Shown here piece by piece: positions 14,465-19,848 of a stretch of 64,000 bases of DNA (position 1 is the stretch's first letter; every line of letters starts with the position of its first letter). Below the pieces are notes generated by a model that did no database searches, had not been told where the DNA came from, and was given only the letters and a program-made list of their open reading frames with translations. This DNA is from Thiomonas sp. FB-Cd (lineage in GTDB: Bacteria; Pseudomonadota; Gammaproteobacteria; Burkholderiales; Burkholderiaceae_C), in contig NZ_JPOE01000005.1 of assembly GCF_000733775.1 (NCBI RefSeq), positions 620,001 through 684,000 on the forward strand. Reading direction: 5' to 3'. A program made the position numbers and the translations under genes.

Positions 14465-14703
14465 CCACCGAACTGTAAAAGCTCCCCGCGAGCCTTGCTG
14501 GCCCGAGGGTTTTGCCCATGCGCACAAACCCTCATCTTCGGCGAAATGCTTCGACACAGGCGATACACGGATGAAACATTTACTCTCCCCAGTATCCACT
14601 AGATTGCACAGCAGCCATGGCTTCCCTCCTCATTGACATGGTCAGGCGCGGCAGCTTCCCAGCCGGTTGCTGTCGCGCCGCCCACAATCCTGCGAACCCA
14701 AAG

Positions 14704-14743
14704 CAGCCATCGGGGCTCGGAAAAATCAAAGCTCCGATGGCTG
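14704..14743. other. Strong hairpin between the bicupin and rhodanese genes
   Basis: A perfect 10-bp stem, CAGCCATCGG (14704-14713) with CCGATGGCTG (14734-14743), can be extended by three inner pairs plus a wobble around an A-rich loop. It lies 140 bp upstream of the rhodanese start and is followed on the plus strand by TTT. It may be a leader structure or a short terminator; function is not shown. Confidence 0.6.
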
Positions 14744-14882
14744 TTTGCGAGGCATTCAAAGCGGCATCGCAACCGCAGGCGCCACGAGGAGGAGTGCCGG
14801 CCGGGCTACTGCACAAGATCCGGCATGGCGAAACGGTAATCGTGAATGCAGTCTGATCGATTTGAACCAAGGAGGAGTTGAG

Positions 14883-15863
14883 ATGCAAATGAAACACCTG
14901 ATGAGCGCCGGGCTACTGAGTCTGGGTCTTGCCGCTGCGCAAGGCGCTGTGGCCATGGATGTACCGGGGCCACTGGTCACGCCGCAATGGCTGCACGCCC
15001 ACCTGAATGATGTGACGGTCGTGGATATCCGGGGCGGCGCCAGCATGAAGCGATTCACGGCTCAACCGCAATTGGGCAAGAATCACATGATCGAGAAAAC
15101 GGGTGGCCATATCGCCGGCGCTGACTTGGTCAATTTCAACGACATTCGCCAGGACCGCACGGTGGACGGCGTAAAGCTCAAGGCCATGATGCCCACCGCC
15201 GCCTACTTCACGAAGGTGATGGACGAAGCCGGCCTGAATACGGGCAAGCCCATCGTCATCGTGCCTACGGGAAATGCGGTGTTCGCCATGGACCGCGGCA
15301 CTCGCCTTTACTTTCAACTGCGTTATTTTGGCGTGCCGCACGGGCAACTCGCCATTCTCAACGGCGGCACCAATGCCTGGATCAACGCCGGCTACCCGGT
15401 GAGCGTTGAACCGGCACCCACCGCAATGGGTGACTGGAAGGCCACAGGTGAAGACAATGCCATTCTCGCCTCAATGCAGCAGGTCAAGGACGGCCTGAGG
15501 CAGGGCACGGAACAGTACATTGATGCCCGCCCCACAGCGCAGTTCCTCGGCATTGCGAAGAAGCCGATTAACAAGACCGCAGGCCACCTTGCCGGCGCCA
15601 AGTCGTTTCCCATTGATGCCATCGTGAAAAACGACCATGGCGCTGCCATGTTCATGACCGCGGCTGAGTACAAGAAAATCTTCCACGACTTCGATATCAG
15701 CCCGAACAAACCCACCACGACGTACTGCAACACTGGCCATCTGGCCTCGGGTGCCTGGTTCGTAGTCCACGAAATCCTGGGCAACAAGAACTCGAAGCTG
15801 TATGCGGGCTCCATGAATGAGTGGACCAACCTGGGCAACCCCACGGTGGGTCTGCCCAGCTGA
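14883..15863 (+). CDS. Secreted two-domain rhodanese (thiosulfate sulfurtransferase-like)
   Basis: Periplasmic sulfurtransferase-like protein of 326 residues. Seen: a signal peptide with probable cleavage after GAVA (about 24), then two rhodanese domains. The first domain (about 30-178) has PTGNAV where the active-site loop would be and no Cys, so it is probably inactive. The second (about 200-322) has YCNTGHLA with the catalytic Cys at 282. AAGGAGG lies seven bases before the ATG. A role in thiosulfate, cyanide or persulfide handling fits a sulfur-oxidising lifestyle, but the donor and acceptor are unknown. An abundant promoter region (14465-14882) precedes it, and a hairpin terminator follows. 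Confidence 0.9.
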   Translation: MQMKHLMSAGLLSLGLAAAQGAVAMDVPGPLVTPQWLHAHLNDVTVVDIRGGASMKRFTAQPQLGKNHMIEKTGGHIAGADLVNFNDIRQDRTVDGVKLKAMMPTAAYFTKVMDEAGLNTGKPIVIVPTGNAVFAMDRGTRLYFQLRYFGVPHGQLAILNGGTNAWINAGYPVSVEPAPTAMGDWKATGEDNAILASMQQVKDGLRQGTEQYIDARPTAQFLGIAKKPINKTAGHLAGAKSFPIDAIVKNDHGAAMFMTAAEYKKIFHDFDISPNKPTTTYCNTGHLASGAWFVVHEILGNKNSKLYAGSMNEWTNLGNPTVGLPS

Positions 15864-16015: not shown

Positions 16016-16255
16016 TCAGTCAGCAATATGATGGACCAGCACGGCTAGGGCTGTAACGATGGTGGCAGCCACAATGGCGCCGGCCACGATCACGTGGTGC
16101 AGCCGCAGCATGGCGAAGTCTCGCTCGCGGTCCTGCCGCCGGCGCAGGCCCACCATCGCGGTGGCTACCGCCCCCAATGCGCGCAGCGTGCCGCGCAAAA
16201 AGCTGACCTTCGAGCCCGCCCTGGCTCGCTGCACAGCGGGCGTTTCGCCCGTCAT
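16016..16255 (-). CDS. DUF2970 family small membrane protein
   Basis: A 79-residue protein of the DUF2970 family. Seen: an N-terminal basic region; the family core GLRRRQDRERDFAMLRLHHV; and one C-terminal hydrophobic segment (about 55-74) that should span the inner membrane. Its ATG overlaps the stop of the DAHP synthase gene by four bases, which implies translational coupling and regulation by the same upstream attenuator. No function is known for the family. Confidence 0.8.
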   Translation of the reverse strand: MTGETPAVQRARAGSKVSFLRGTLRALGAVATAMVGLRRRQDRERDFAMLRLHHVIVAGAIVAATIVTALAVLVHHIAD

Positions 16256-17485: not shown

Positions 17486-17518
17486 AAAAAAAACCGCCGG
17501 ACTTGGTCGGCGGTTTTT
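17486..17518 (-). terminator. Attenuator terminator upstream of the DAHP synthase gene
   Basis: On the minus strand a six-GC-pair stem (17508-17513 with 17494-17499), flanked by five or more A-T pairs, closes an eight-base loop and is followed by a run of eight T. This is a textbook intrinsic terminator. It lies 15 bp past the leader-peptide stop and 107 bp before the DAHP synthase start, so it would end transcription before the structural gene. Its 5' arm CCGCCG can instead pair with CGGCGG inside the leader ORF (17558-17563). Confidence 0.85.
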
Positions 17519-17532
17519 AGGGATTCGTTGAT

Positions 17533-17610
17533 TCAGGCTGAACGCTGCCCTCTCCCTCCGCCGGCGCGGTGCGAGAACCAAAAATAAAAGCCAAACACGA
17601 AGCGGGACAT
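17533..17610 (-). CDS. Aromatic-rich leader peptide of the DAHP synthase operon
   Basis: A 25-codon ORF starting at the ATG at 17610. Codons 4-12 read FVFGFYFWF, seven aromatic residues in nine (five Phe, one Tyr, one Trp). The peptide then ends in a Gly/Arg-rich tail and a TGA at 17533. Seen: immediately downstream lies an intrinsic terminator, then the DAHP synthase gene. Inference: ribosome stalling at the aromatic codons when charged tRNA-Phe, -Tyr or -Trp is scarce would favour an antiterminator and expression. The ribosome-binding site is not obvious. The aromatic density makes chance unlikely. Confidence 0.8.
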   Translation of the reverse strand: MSRFVFGFYFWFSHRAGGGRGQRSA

Positions 17611-17635
17611 GGCAGGTTTTTTGAGAAGGCGTCCT

Positions 17636-17665
17636 AGTGTAGCCTCGACTGCACGCCTAGAGCAA
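17636..17665 (-). promoter_or_regulatory. Candidate promoter of the DAHP synthase attenuator transcript
   Basis: On the minus strand TTGCTC (17660-17665) and TACACT (17636-17641) match the sigma-70 -35 and -10 boxes at four of six positions each, with an 18-bp spacer. Transcription would begin about 20 nt before the leader-peptide ATG. Confidence 0.5.
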
Positions 17666-17772: not shown

Positions 17773-18594
17773 ATGGAAAGCCTAAGGAACCTACAGCAAT
17801 TGGGATTCGCACCGGGAAGCCCTCCGGGACTAGAAACGCGCGCAACCGAGATCGATCTTCCGGAGTATCAGGGAAAAGACGGCGTCGAATCCGAGCTTGG
17901 GCAGTTGCGCGACACAATCGGCGAGTTGCAGGACCGCATGTTCACGCGCAAGGAACTTTCGCTGCTCGTGGTGCTGCAAGGCATGGACTCAGCCGGCAAG
18001 GACAGCACGACCAAGGCCGTGTTCACGGGCGTTAATCCGCTTGGCATCCATGCGGCCTCGTTCAGCTTCCCCACACCGCTGGAACAGCGGCACGATTTTC
18101 TCTGGCGCGTTCATGCGCACGTGCCGCCGCGCGGATGCATCGGTGTCTTTAACCGCAGCCATTATGAGGACCCCGTGATCGGGCTCGTCCATAAGCAGAT
18201 CAACCACGCCACGTTCCGGCAGCACCTGACGCAGATCGTGGATTTTGAACGCATGCTCGCAGAGGATGGCACGACCGTCCTGAAGTGCTTCTTGCATATC
18301 GGGTTCAACGAGCAGCGCAAGCGACTGCAAGAACGCGTCGACAATCCCAAAAAACATTGGAAATTTGATCCCTCGGACCTGTCCGAGCGCAAGCTTTGGG
18401 GCGACTACCACAGGGCTTACGAATCAGCCCTGAGTCTGAGCAATGCTGGTCATGCACCGTGGTATGTCGTGCCCGCCGACCACAAACCCGTGCGCAATCT
18501 TCTTGTGGCGCGATTGGTCGTGCAGGCCCTTCAATCCATGCCCCTACGCGAACCCTCCCCCAAGCCGGAGCTGAAGGGCTTGAAGGTGATGTGA
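17773..18594 (+). CDS. Polyphosphate kinase 2 family protein
   Basis: PPK2 phosphotransferase of 273 residues that moves phosphate between polyphosphate and nucleotides. Seen: Walker A GMDSAGKDST at 70-79, Walker B GVFNRSHYEDP, and the lid region NPKKHWKFDPSDLSERKLW with conserved basic residues. It has a single PPK2 domain. Class and nucleotide preference (ADP, AMP or GDP) cannot be told by eye. GGGAG precedes the ATG at 17773; the frame extends upstream to 17725 without homology. It is divergent from the DAHP synthase transcript. Confidence 0.92.
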   Translation: MESLRNLQQLGFAPGSPPGLETRATEIDLPEYQGKDGVESELGQLRDTIGELQDRMFTRKELSLLVVLQGMDSAGKDSTTKAVFTGVNPLGIHAASFSFPTPLEQRHDFLWRVHAHVPPRGCIGVFNRSHYEDPVIGLVHKQINHATFRQHLTQIVDFERMLAEDGTTVLKCFLHIGFNEQRKRLQERVDNPKKHWKFDPSDLSERKLWGDYHRAYESALSLSNAGHAPWYVVPADHKPVRNLLVARLVVQALQSMPLREPSPKPELKGLKVM

Positions 18595-18715: not shown

Positions 18716-19153
18716 TCAGTCGCAGGTTTTGCCGCGCGCGGCGTGGTCACCCGCAGCCTTGGCAGCAGCTTCGCTCATGTATTCGCCGTGCTTCGTCTTG
18801 CCGTAGTACTTGTCGCCGGGACAGTGGTAGACCTTGGTTGCCGTATTCACCCACACCTTGCCAGCGCCGCCGCCGGCTGCAGGGGCGGTGCCGGCCACGG
18901 ATTTGGTCCCGGATTTTTTCGCCACTGCCTCCTTGGCACTTGGCGTCGTGGGTGCGGCGCCGGCAGCTGGCGCGGCTTTTGCCATGCACGATTTGAGGAA
19001 TTCGGTGCGAGCCTTGCCCTTGAGCTTTTGCTCCTTTGCCTGCTTCTCACACTGCACCTTTTCCGCGTGGCCGGCGAGGATGCCGGCGGAGGCAGCGGCA
19101 GGGACGGAAAACGCCGCCGCCACAAATAGAGTGAGGATCCAGATGCGTTTCAT
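18716..19153 (-). CDS. Secreted PsiF-repeat protein with a second conserved C-terminal segment
   Basis: A 145-residue exported protein. Seen: a signal peptide ([15 protein letters not shown], Ala-rich cleavage region near 25); a PsiF-type repeat with [16 protein letters not shown] and a paired Cys; an Ala/Pro linker; and a C-terminal unit reading [20 protein letters not shown] then [14 protein letters not shown] sequence ending GKTC. The C-terminal unit recurs in other small proteobacterial secreted proteins (from memory) and has a pair of Cys. PsiF itself is phosphate-starvation induced; function is unknown. AAAGG lies seven bases before the ATG at 19153. Confidence 0.75.
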
Positions 19154-19311
19154 CGAGTGGCCTTTCAAGCGAGTGAGGTACAACCCTACCAACAGCGAAG
19201 AATCCCGCTGCTTGTTGAAACGGGATTAGCAGCACCAATCCCGGCATGCCGGGCATGATTCAGTGTAACGCGCGACGCTGACCGACTGGAACGCATCGGC
19301 CACGTCCACGA

Positions 19312-19848
19312 TCAACGCGATGACGACCACATGCGGCGTAGCAGTCCGTCACGCACGATGAAATGATGGTGCACGGCCGCCAGCACATGCAAAGCAATCA
19401 GCCCCAGCAGGGCGTAGGCGACGAGTTGGTGCACGTCGCCAAGTGGCCGGGCCCAGGCTGCGCCCTGCGCCGCCAGCGCAGGAAGGGGGACCCATCCGGC
19501 CCAATGCACGGTCCAGCCTCGGGCCGAGGCATTGGCCCAACCCAACAATGGCAACGCGATGAATCCGGCGTAAAGCAGCCCGTGGGTTAAGCGTGCAATG
19601 CGGTCCTGCCACGCGGGCGCCGGATGTGGGTCCGGGGCTCCGCTGACGCCCCGCCACAACAGTCGCAGCAGCATCAAGCTCAAGATGAACGTGCCTAGCC
19701 CCAAATGCCAAGCCACCAGCCCAACGGGCCGCGTGTCGCGGTGGATATCGGGCATCGTCCAGGCGATGGCAAACTCCAGTGCGATGAGTCCGAAAATGGC
19801 CCAATGGAGCCAGCGGGCGGGAAGGTTGTAGACAGCAGTTCTAGACAT
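19312..19848 (-). CDS. Cytochrome b561 family protein
   Basis: Inner-membrane di-heme cytochrome b of 178 residues with four transmembrane helices. Seen: His in RWLHW near residue 15, GLVAWHLGLG near 48, and a C-terminal pair in LGDVHQL and LIALHVLAAVHHHF, positions expected for heme ligands. Related proteins oxidise superoxide or carry electrons from the quinone pool. No partner enzyme is adjacent; the neighbours are the PsiF-like gene and tldD. Confidence 0.9.
   Translation of the reverse strand: MSRTAVYNLPARWLHWAIFGLIALEFAIAWTMPDIHRDTRPVGLVAWHLGLGTFILSLMLLRLLWRGVSGAPDPHPAPAWQDRIARLTHGLLYAGFIALPLLGWANASARGWTVHWAGWVPLPALAAQGAAWARPLGDVHQLVAYALLGLIALHVLAAVHHHFIVRDGLLRRMWSSSR

Follow-up and report, generated by a model that had tools for sequence, protein, structure and literature searches.

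We consider the minus strand of the window (the whole 64-kb stretch of DNA analysed here) highly likely, from sequence comparison, to carry a ribosome-mediated transcription attenuator of the trp/phe type in control of a gene for 3-deoxy-7-phosphoheptulonate (DAHP) synthase. This leader would very probably switch the first enzyme of aromatic synthesis on and off. The preliminary description of this DNA had proposed such an attenuator, and comparison with close and distant relatives bears the proposal out: the leader ORF, its aromatic codons, the terminator and the antiterminator pairing are all kept.

Results

Gene order and the leader ORF

Read along the minus strand, a -35/-10-like box pair is followed by the leader ORF, an intrinsic terminator, the DAHP synthase gene and a DUF2970 gene (Table 1). 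The DUF2970 ORF and the DAHP synthase stop overlap by 4 nt, and the two genes are probably co-transcribed. Both genes had been described earlier and are present, but the isozyme name aroG given to the first is unsecured: the protein scores above the NCBIfam cut-offs for the general aroFGH model and the tryptophan-sensitive AroH model, and below the cut-off for the AroG model. The second DAHP synthase gene of the genome (57% identical) has no aromatic leader within 500 nt upstream.

The leader ORF begins with an ATG at 17610 and has aromatic codons at positions 4, 6, 8, 9, 10, 11 and 12, in agreement with the 25-codon length and the seven aromatic codons among codons 4-12 reported before. When short ORFs of 10-45 codons are counted by their stop codons, the window has 1130, and no other one reaches six aromatic codons in nine.

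Table 1. Features of the attenuator locus and its neighbours in the window
Feature	Positions	Strand	Basis or remark
-35-like box TTGCTC	17660..17665	-	best-scoring box pair
-10-like box TACACT	17636..17641	-	best-scoring box pair; 25 nt before leader ATG
Leader ORF MSRFVFGFYFWFSHRAGGGRGQRSA	17533..17610	-	25 codons + stop; TGA ending 17533
Codons 9-12 (Tyr Phe Trp Phe)	17575..17586	-	a stall here would cover arm 1, not segment 2; inferred from ribosome footprint and distance profile
Arm 1 UUCUCGCACCGC	17566..17577	-	pairs with segment 2 (anti-antiterminator, 1:2 hairpin); fold, 69-leader alignment
Segment 2 CGGCGGAGGGAGAG	17550..17563	-	partner of arm 1 or segment 3; folds, comparison
Segment 3 UCCCU-AAAAA-CCGCCG	17508..17523	-	antiterminator partner of segment 2; fold, 11 pairs
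Intrinsic terminator AAAAACCGCCG-ACCAAGUC-CGGCGGUUUUU + UUU	17486..17518	-	z -4.8; 69-row alignment
Type I-alpha DAHP synthase, 397 aa	16252..17445	-	Pfam PF00793, TIGR00034 above cut-off
DUF2970 protein	16016..16255	-	Pfam PF11174
Rhodanese-domain protein	14667-15863	+	neighbour
PPK2 polyphosphate kinase	17773-18594	+	neighbour
PsiF-repeat protein	18716-19192	-	neighbour
Cytochrome b561	19312-19848	-	neighbour

Recurrence before DAHP synthase genes

A DAHP synthase protein search of the genomes of 60 relatives gave a match in 55. The 30 loci with the best matches, among them that of the window, were taken, and 80 more named loci (the top 80 of 592) bring the total to 110. All 30 best-matching loci combine an aromatic leader ORF with a CCGCC...GGCGG-T terminator behind it, and a leader with at least five aromatic codons in nine precedes 92 of the 110 DAHP synthase genes (91 of 109 distinct loci, since L006 and L031 are one locus). 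The antisense strands reach the same threshold in 2 of 110 cases. Dinucleotide shuffles, 20 each for 108 of the 110 upstream regions, reach five of nine in 6 of 2160 cases and seven of nine in none.

The 18 loci that lack a leader by the five-of-nine criterion, one of which has merely 49 nt upstream, include three Polynucleobacter, two Cupriavidus genes, two Methylotenera, Thauera, Undibacterium, Thioalkalivibrio, a Rhodocyclaceae MAG, a Betaproteobacteria MAG and four MAGs titled as other phyla. Another of the 18, L067, has a weakened leader (four of nine) with GGCGC in place of GGCGG. In Polynucleobacter all three loci (L056, L058, L062) are without an aromatic leader before DAHP synthase. 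Elsewhere, a tandem pair of DAHP synthase genes (G057:C1:2636369-2638526) has the leader before the first one, and in genome G266 a small SRP RNA gene (RF00169; L160:82-180) lies on the same strand, beyond the DAHP synthase gene as seen from the leader.

Terminator, antiterminator and arm 1

The intrinsic terminator lies just beyond the leader stop, as the preliminary description held, with an 11-pair stem (17518-17508 with 17499-17489) and a T tract to 17486; the distance from stop codon to stem measures 14 nt in place of the 15 given there. Taken alone the terminator folds better than shuffles in the window and in the alignment (z < -2 in 69 of 69 loci), whereas the folding energy of the whole 162-nt leader is no better than that of shuffles (z -0.92). 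A promoter and terminator scanner detects neither element at the leader, because five of the eight U residues sit in the stem and the promoter resembles the E. coli consensus only weakly. An unremarkable whole-leader fold and a silent scanner would suit an ORF that arose by chance ahead of an ordinary terminator and regulates nothing. We find that reading scarcely credible and reject it: the recurrence in genus, family, order and outside the class speaks strongly against it, as do the shuffled and antisense counts set beside those of the real regions, and the upstream PPK2-type gene (ppk2) is divergent from the leader and does not end there.

The attenuator reading requires a competing structure, and the one proposed earlier is recovered. 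CGGCGG in the leader (17563-17558) pairs with CCGCCG (17513-17508), which is also the 5' arm of the terminator, to the exclusion of the latter. The antiterminator fold in the window comprises 11 pairs between CGGCGGAGGGA and UCCCU-AAAAA-CCGCCG, including a second helix, AGGGA:UCCCU; this helix and arm 1 were missing from the earlier list of parts. With arm 1 and segment 4 excluded, GGCGG:CCGCC appears in 68 of the 69 folds. The pairing of arm 1 with segment 2 in the window consists of UUCUC with GAGAG and CCGC with GCGG.

Across the alignment, which holds the 69 loci left from 90 after identical and near-identical ones were removed, 99.6% of terminator cells are paired (69 rows), 97.6% of antiterminator cells and 82.1% of arm 1:segment 2 cells (69 leaders). 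RNAalifold recovers the terminator alone from this alignment, and the other helices were counted with structures that we named, so their counts lean towards those helices. The arm 1:segment 2 helix is the least certain because its energy is close to that of shuffles: the median z is -0.52 and a helix of at least five pairs occurs in 60 of 69 leaders against 60% of shuffles. Four of the five pairs in this hairpin have changes on both sides in the alignment.

From this anatomy and its conservation we infer the following course of ribosome stalling, termination and response to amino acids. With charged Phe-, Tyr- and Trp-tRNA ample, the ribosome would traverse the leader, arm 1 would pair with segment 2, and segment 3, left to pair with segment 4, would end transcription at about 17486. 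With one of these tRNAs scarce, the ribosome would stall at codons 9-12 and mask arm 1, so that segment 2, lying free inside the leader ORF, could pair with segment 3 (UCCCU...CCGCCG) ahead of the synthesis of segment 4; the terminator would then fail to form, and the DAHP synthase and DUF2970 genes would be transcribed.

Conservation of the RNA and of the peptide

A pattern search finds GGYGG within the ORF together with the CCGCC...GGCGG-T terminator in 90 of the 92 leader-bearing loci. The other two are L033, in which leader and terminator are present with GGCCG for GGCGG, and L060, in which the terminator loop is longer than the pattern allows. The core match in 90 of 90 loci is conditional, as these loci were picked for GGYGG in the ORF and for the terminator. 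The core of segment 2 is GGCGG, directly after the aromatic block (GGUGG in L100). It lies in different reading frames of the leader ORF (frame 0 in 55 of 90, frame 2 in 34, frame 1 in one), with at least six frame changes on the DAHP synthase tree, and is therefore kept as RNA and not as peptide. Because GGCGG changes frame, the peptide after the aromatic block differs among lineages (GGGRG, AAGE, PLADREG, KAVE) while the RNA motif stays constant.

These observations bear on whether the leader is translated for a peptide that acts in trans, for which peTrpL of Sinorhizobium meliloti, as presented in PMC7298713, is the precedent, and to which a FWFSHR-like stretch conserved in the window's genus might point. 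We judge such a role very unlikely and have set it aside: the residues after the aromatic block are lineage-specific, and even within the genus the SHR varies (L008 and L016 have Y for H, L003 has C for R).

The base beside the core co-varies in the three segments: read across segments 2-3-4, it is C-G-C in 56 of 90 loci, U-A-U in 15, U-G-C in five and another combination in 14; in a wider set of 157 loci (14 of 171 having been dropped, with no leader or terminator recognised by the patterns) C-G-C accounts for 69 and U-A-U for 39. This base is unpaired in the antiterminator at 11 of 90 loci. On the tree the segment 3 base changed five times, with four independent pairs, and of these segment 4 follows on average in 4.0, segment 2 in 2.7 and the opposite in 0.0, a result that is not significant and is under-powered. 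Two loci of one genus outside the class (L252, L253) have a segment 2 core of GGCAG opposite CUGCC in segment 3, a two-sided change by which the antiterminator is preserved and one G-U is left in the terminator.

Codon geometry and the amino acids sensed

With its A site at least 12 nt upstream, a ribosome would barely clear GGCGG. Aromatic codons cluster 12-35 nt ahead of this motif, with few any closer, an edge that matches the masking of arm 1 without the masking of segment 2. Among 82 distinct leaders an aromatic residue stands 36-38 nt before GGCGG in 33, at 21-23 nt in 81, at 18-20 nt in 78, at 15-17 nt in 62, at 12-14 nt in 34 and at 9-11 nt in three. In the window codons 9-12 suit this geometry and codons 4 and 6 should not, and a single switch sensing Phe, Tyr and Trp would fit the codons nearest arm 1 (Tyr9, Phe10, Trp11, Phe12).

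Of 133 leaders in all, 124 are distinct; 77 of these contain Phe, Tyr and Trp, 41 Phe and Tyr, three Phe and Trp, and three Phe alone. Within 12-25 nt of GGCGG (82 leaders) the corresponding numbers are 38, 18, 20 and six. We regard it as possible, if rather doubtful, that the attenuator works and answers to Phe alone (or to Trp11 and Phe12, the final pair of aromatic codons), with the Tyr and Trp codons as passengers. Phe is the commonest residue by far in the 124 leaders (554, against 211 Tyr and 90 Trp), 44 of them are without a Trp codon up to the last aromatic residue, and aroR of Corynebacterium glutamicum (Phe-Tyr-Phe) is reported in PMC11802643 to respond to Phe and not to Tyr, a warning that Tyr codons do not always bring a response to Tyr. 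Set against this are the prevalence of leaders with all three residues or with Phe and Tyr, the 38 of 82 in which all three lie within the stretch nearest GGCGG, and the position of Trp, which is the commonest residue directly before the last aromatic one (54 of 124).

In the leaders of the 90 selected loci (among L001-L110) Phe is encoded by TTT in 251 of 407 cases, whereas the downstream DAHP synthase genes use TTC in 559 of 702 and TTT in 143. At the last aromatic codon TTC accounts for 63 of 100 cases, against 140 of 454 elsewhere, a count uncorrected for kinship and concerning a codon that overlaps arm 1 in the window.

Promoter and start of the leader transcript

The promoter-like boxes noted earlier are present, and the best-scoring pair keeps an 18-nt spacer in all 24 loci of the window's genus (L001-L024), but TTGCTC and TACACT match the consensus at 7 of 12 bases and left the scanner silent. 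Transcription would start near 17629, about 19 nt before the leader ATG. The distance from the end of the -10-like box to the ATG is 22-26 nt in 23 of the genus's 24 loci; L023, with 39 nt, is the exception. By eye, no Shine-Dalgarno-like sequence is seen before the window's leader ATG.

In 38 of 90 loci, mainly from Comamonadaceae-type organisms, 6-8 nt separate the end of a -10-like hexamer from the ATG, and 33 of these have an extended TGn; for 35 loci between L025 and L076 this is a -10 box, mostly of the extended form (TGnTACATT). With the box so close to the ATG, a leaderless leader mRNA is predicted in this Comamonadaceae-type clade. In a family outside the class, 8 of 10 loci judged by eye have a TATA-like box that ends 6-7 nt ahead of the first ATG of the leader.

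Distribution of the leader

The covariance model R1 matches the window's genome convincingly at one place (E 4.4e-17), its remaining matches there having E 0.88 and 8.8. Across 399 genomes of the order, 133 have a match at E <=0.01, and 103 matches in 102 genomes reach E <=2.4e-5; all 77 of these 103 that were checked (30 plus 47 of 60 fetched loci) precede DAHP synthase. Just one of the other 13 fetched matches, at E 1.1e-4 to 2.6e-3, does so, and R1 matches between about 1e-4 and 3e-3 are mostly noise. With GTG and TTG starts allowed, an ORF with five aromatic codons in nine accompanies 43 of 48 matches before DAHP synthase and two of the 12 others.

Of the matches beyond the order in 369 genomes of the class, four stand ahead of DAHP synthase, unlike a fifth (E 8.4e-5); within family f63 a single genus has a match in 37 of 37 genomes, and two of these were among the matches checked for the class. 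In 398 genomes of the phylum there are 18 matches at E <=1e-5 outside the class, of which 13 were fetched together with one same-class match, and all 14 precede DAHP synthase. One family outside the class has matches in 10 of 100 genomes, each of the 10 before DAHP synthase and four of them already among the 13. At a guess, the matches outside the class belong to Alphaproteobacteria. The counts beyond the order are lower bounds, because R1 was trained within the window's order and the filters were strict. Four loci of family f44 (L178, L179, L185, L191) have R1 matches before DAHP synthase with a leader ORF in which merely one to four codons of nine are aromatic; these may be decaying or retuned switches.

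No Rfam 15 family fits the leader by cut-off. A search at the gathering cut-off yields none, either over the whole window or at the leader of 20 loci (that of the window among them); with the limit relaxed to E 10 none reaches its cut-off at the leader, Leu_leader scoring 18.7 bits against 50 and Phe_leader 16.3 against 55, with Trp_leader unlisted.

Discussion

Leader-peptide attenuation is known as a kind, from the trp and phe leaders and from aroR-aroF of C. glutamicum. In the ilvGMEDA and thr leaders of enteric bacteria a single leader senses several amino acids of a branched pathway; sensing of several amino acids would be the common trait with the window, while the amino acids and the genes differ. 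Phe_leader (Rfam RF01859) combines a Phe-codon leader peptide with segments 1 to 4 and a terminator. The segment layout of the window is the same, but its score lies far below the Phe_leader cut-off and Phe_leader governs pheA and pheST according to PMC11802643. The trp leaders, including trpL of S. meliloti, share the proposed mechanism and differ in their Trp codons and in the operon they control, trpE(G) (PMC7298713); that source describes the trpL RNA as beginning with the leader's ATG, the arrangement predicted here in one clade of relatives.

In C. glutamicum an aromatic leader peptide precedes a DAHP synthase gene in the aroR-aroF attenuator (Neshat et al. 2014, as cited in PMC7356990 and PMC11802643; aroF leader in PMC4046766), which is like the window in its aromatic codons, in the gene that follows and in the proposed attenuation by ribosome stalling. 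Compared by description, that actinobacterial leader has Phe-Tyr-Phe and a Phe response, whereas the window's has seven aromatic codons including Trp. Attenuation has also been predicted before DAHP synthase genes in Vibrio (aroAI-alpha-Y with tyrA, a putative attenuator of the Merino database listed in PMC1173090) and in Shewanella (aroF, putative and labelled in PMC2659441 as tyrosyl-tRNA-sensing on the basis of a 1980 E. coli paper); these cases, likewise compared by description, come with no leader peptide in the sources as cited. The DAHP synthase genes of E. coli are described as three specialised isozymes under TyrR and TrpR repression (PMC5343134, PMC11802643), with the same target step and the same end-product logic, but exerted by DNA-binding repressors where the window would use an RNA switch. 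The main text of a wide-ranging survey of premature terminators mentions neither aroG nor aroF (PMC2965389), and among the matches listed from the open-licence literature we recognised no report of such a leader in Burkholderiales.

What appears new is the breadth of the leader, its frequent mixture of Phe, Tyr and Trp codons and the leaderless leader mRNA predicted in one clade, and a widespread attenuator without an Rfam entry is, on the comparative evidence, well supported. More tentatively, and at a strength somewhat short of probable, we propose that one RNA family absent from Rfam 15 is a main control of the aromatic entry step in a large part of the phylum, acting as an OR gate for shortage of Phe, Tyr or Trp, with its leader peptide read from a leaderless mRNA in several lineages. 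The recurrence is wide enough for an Rfam proposal, and it has implications for the mixing of three amino acids in some leaders and for the translation of leader ORFs that lack a Shine-Dalgarno sequence. DAHP synthase controls the flux into aromatic compounds as a whole, and a single attenuator before one of two paralogs could exert the control for which E. coli uses three isozymes and two repressors.
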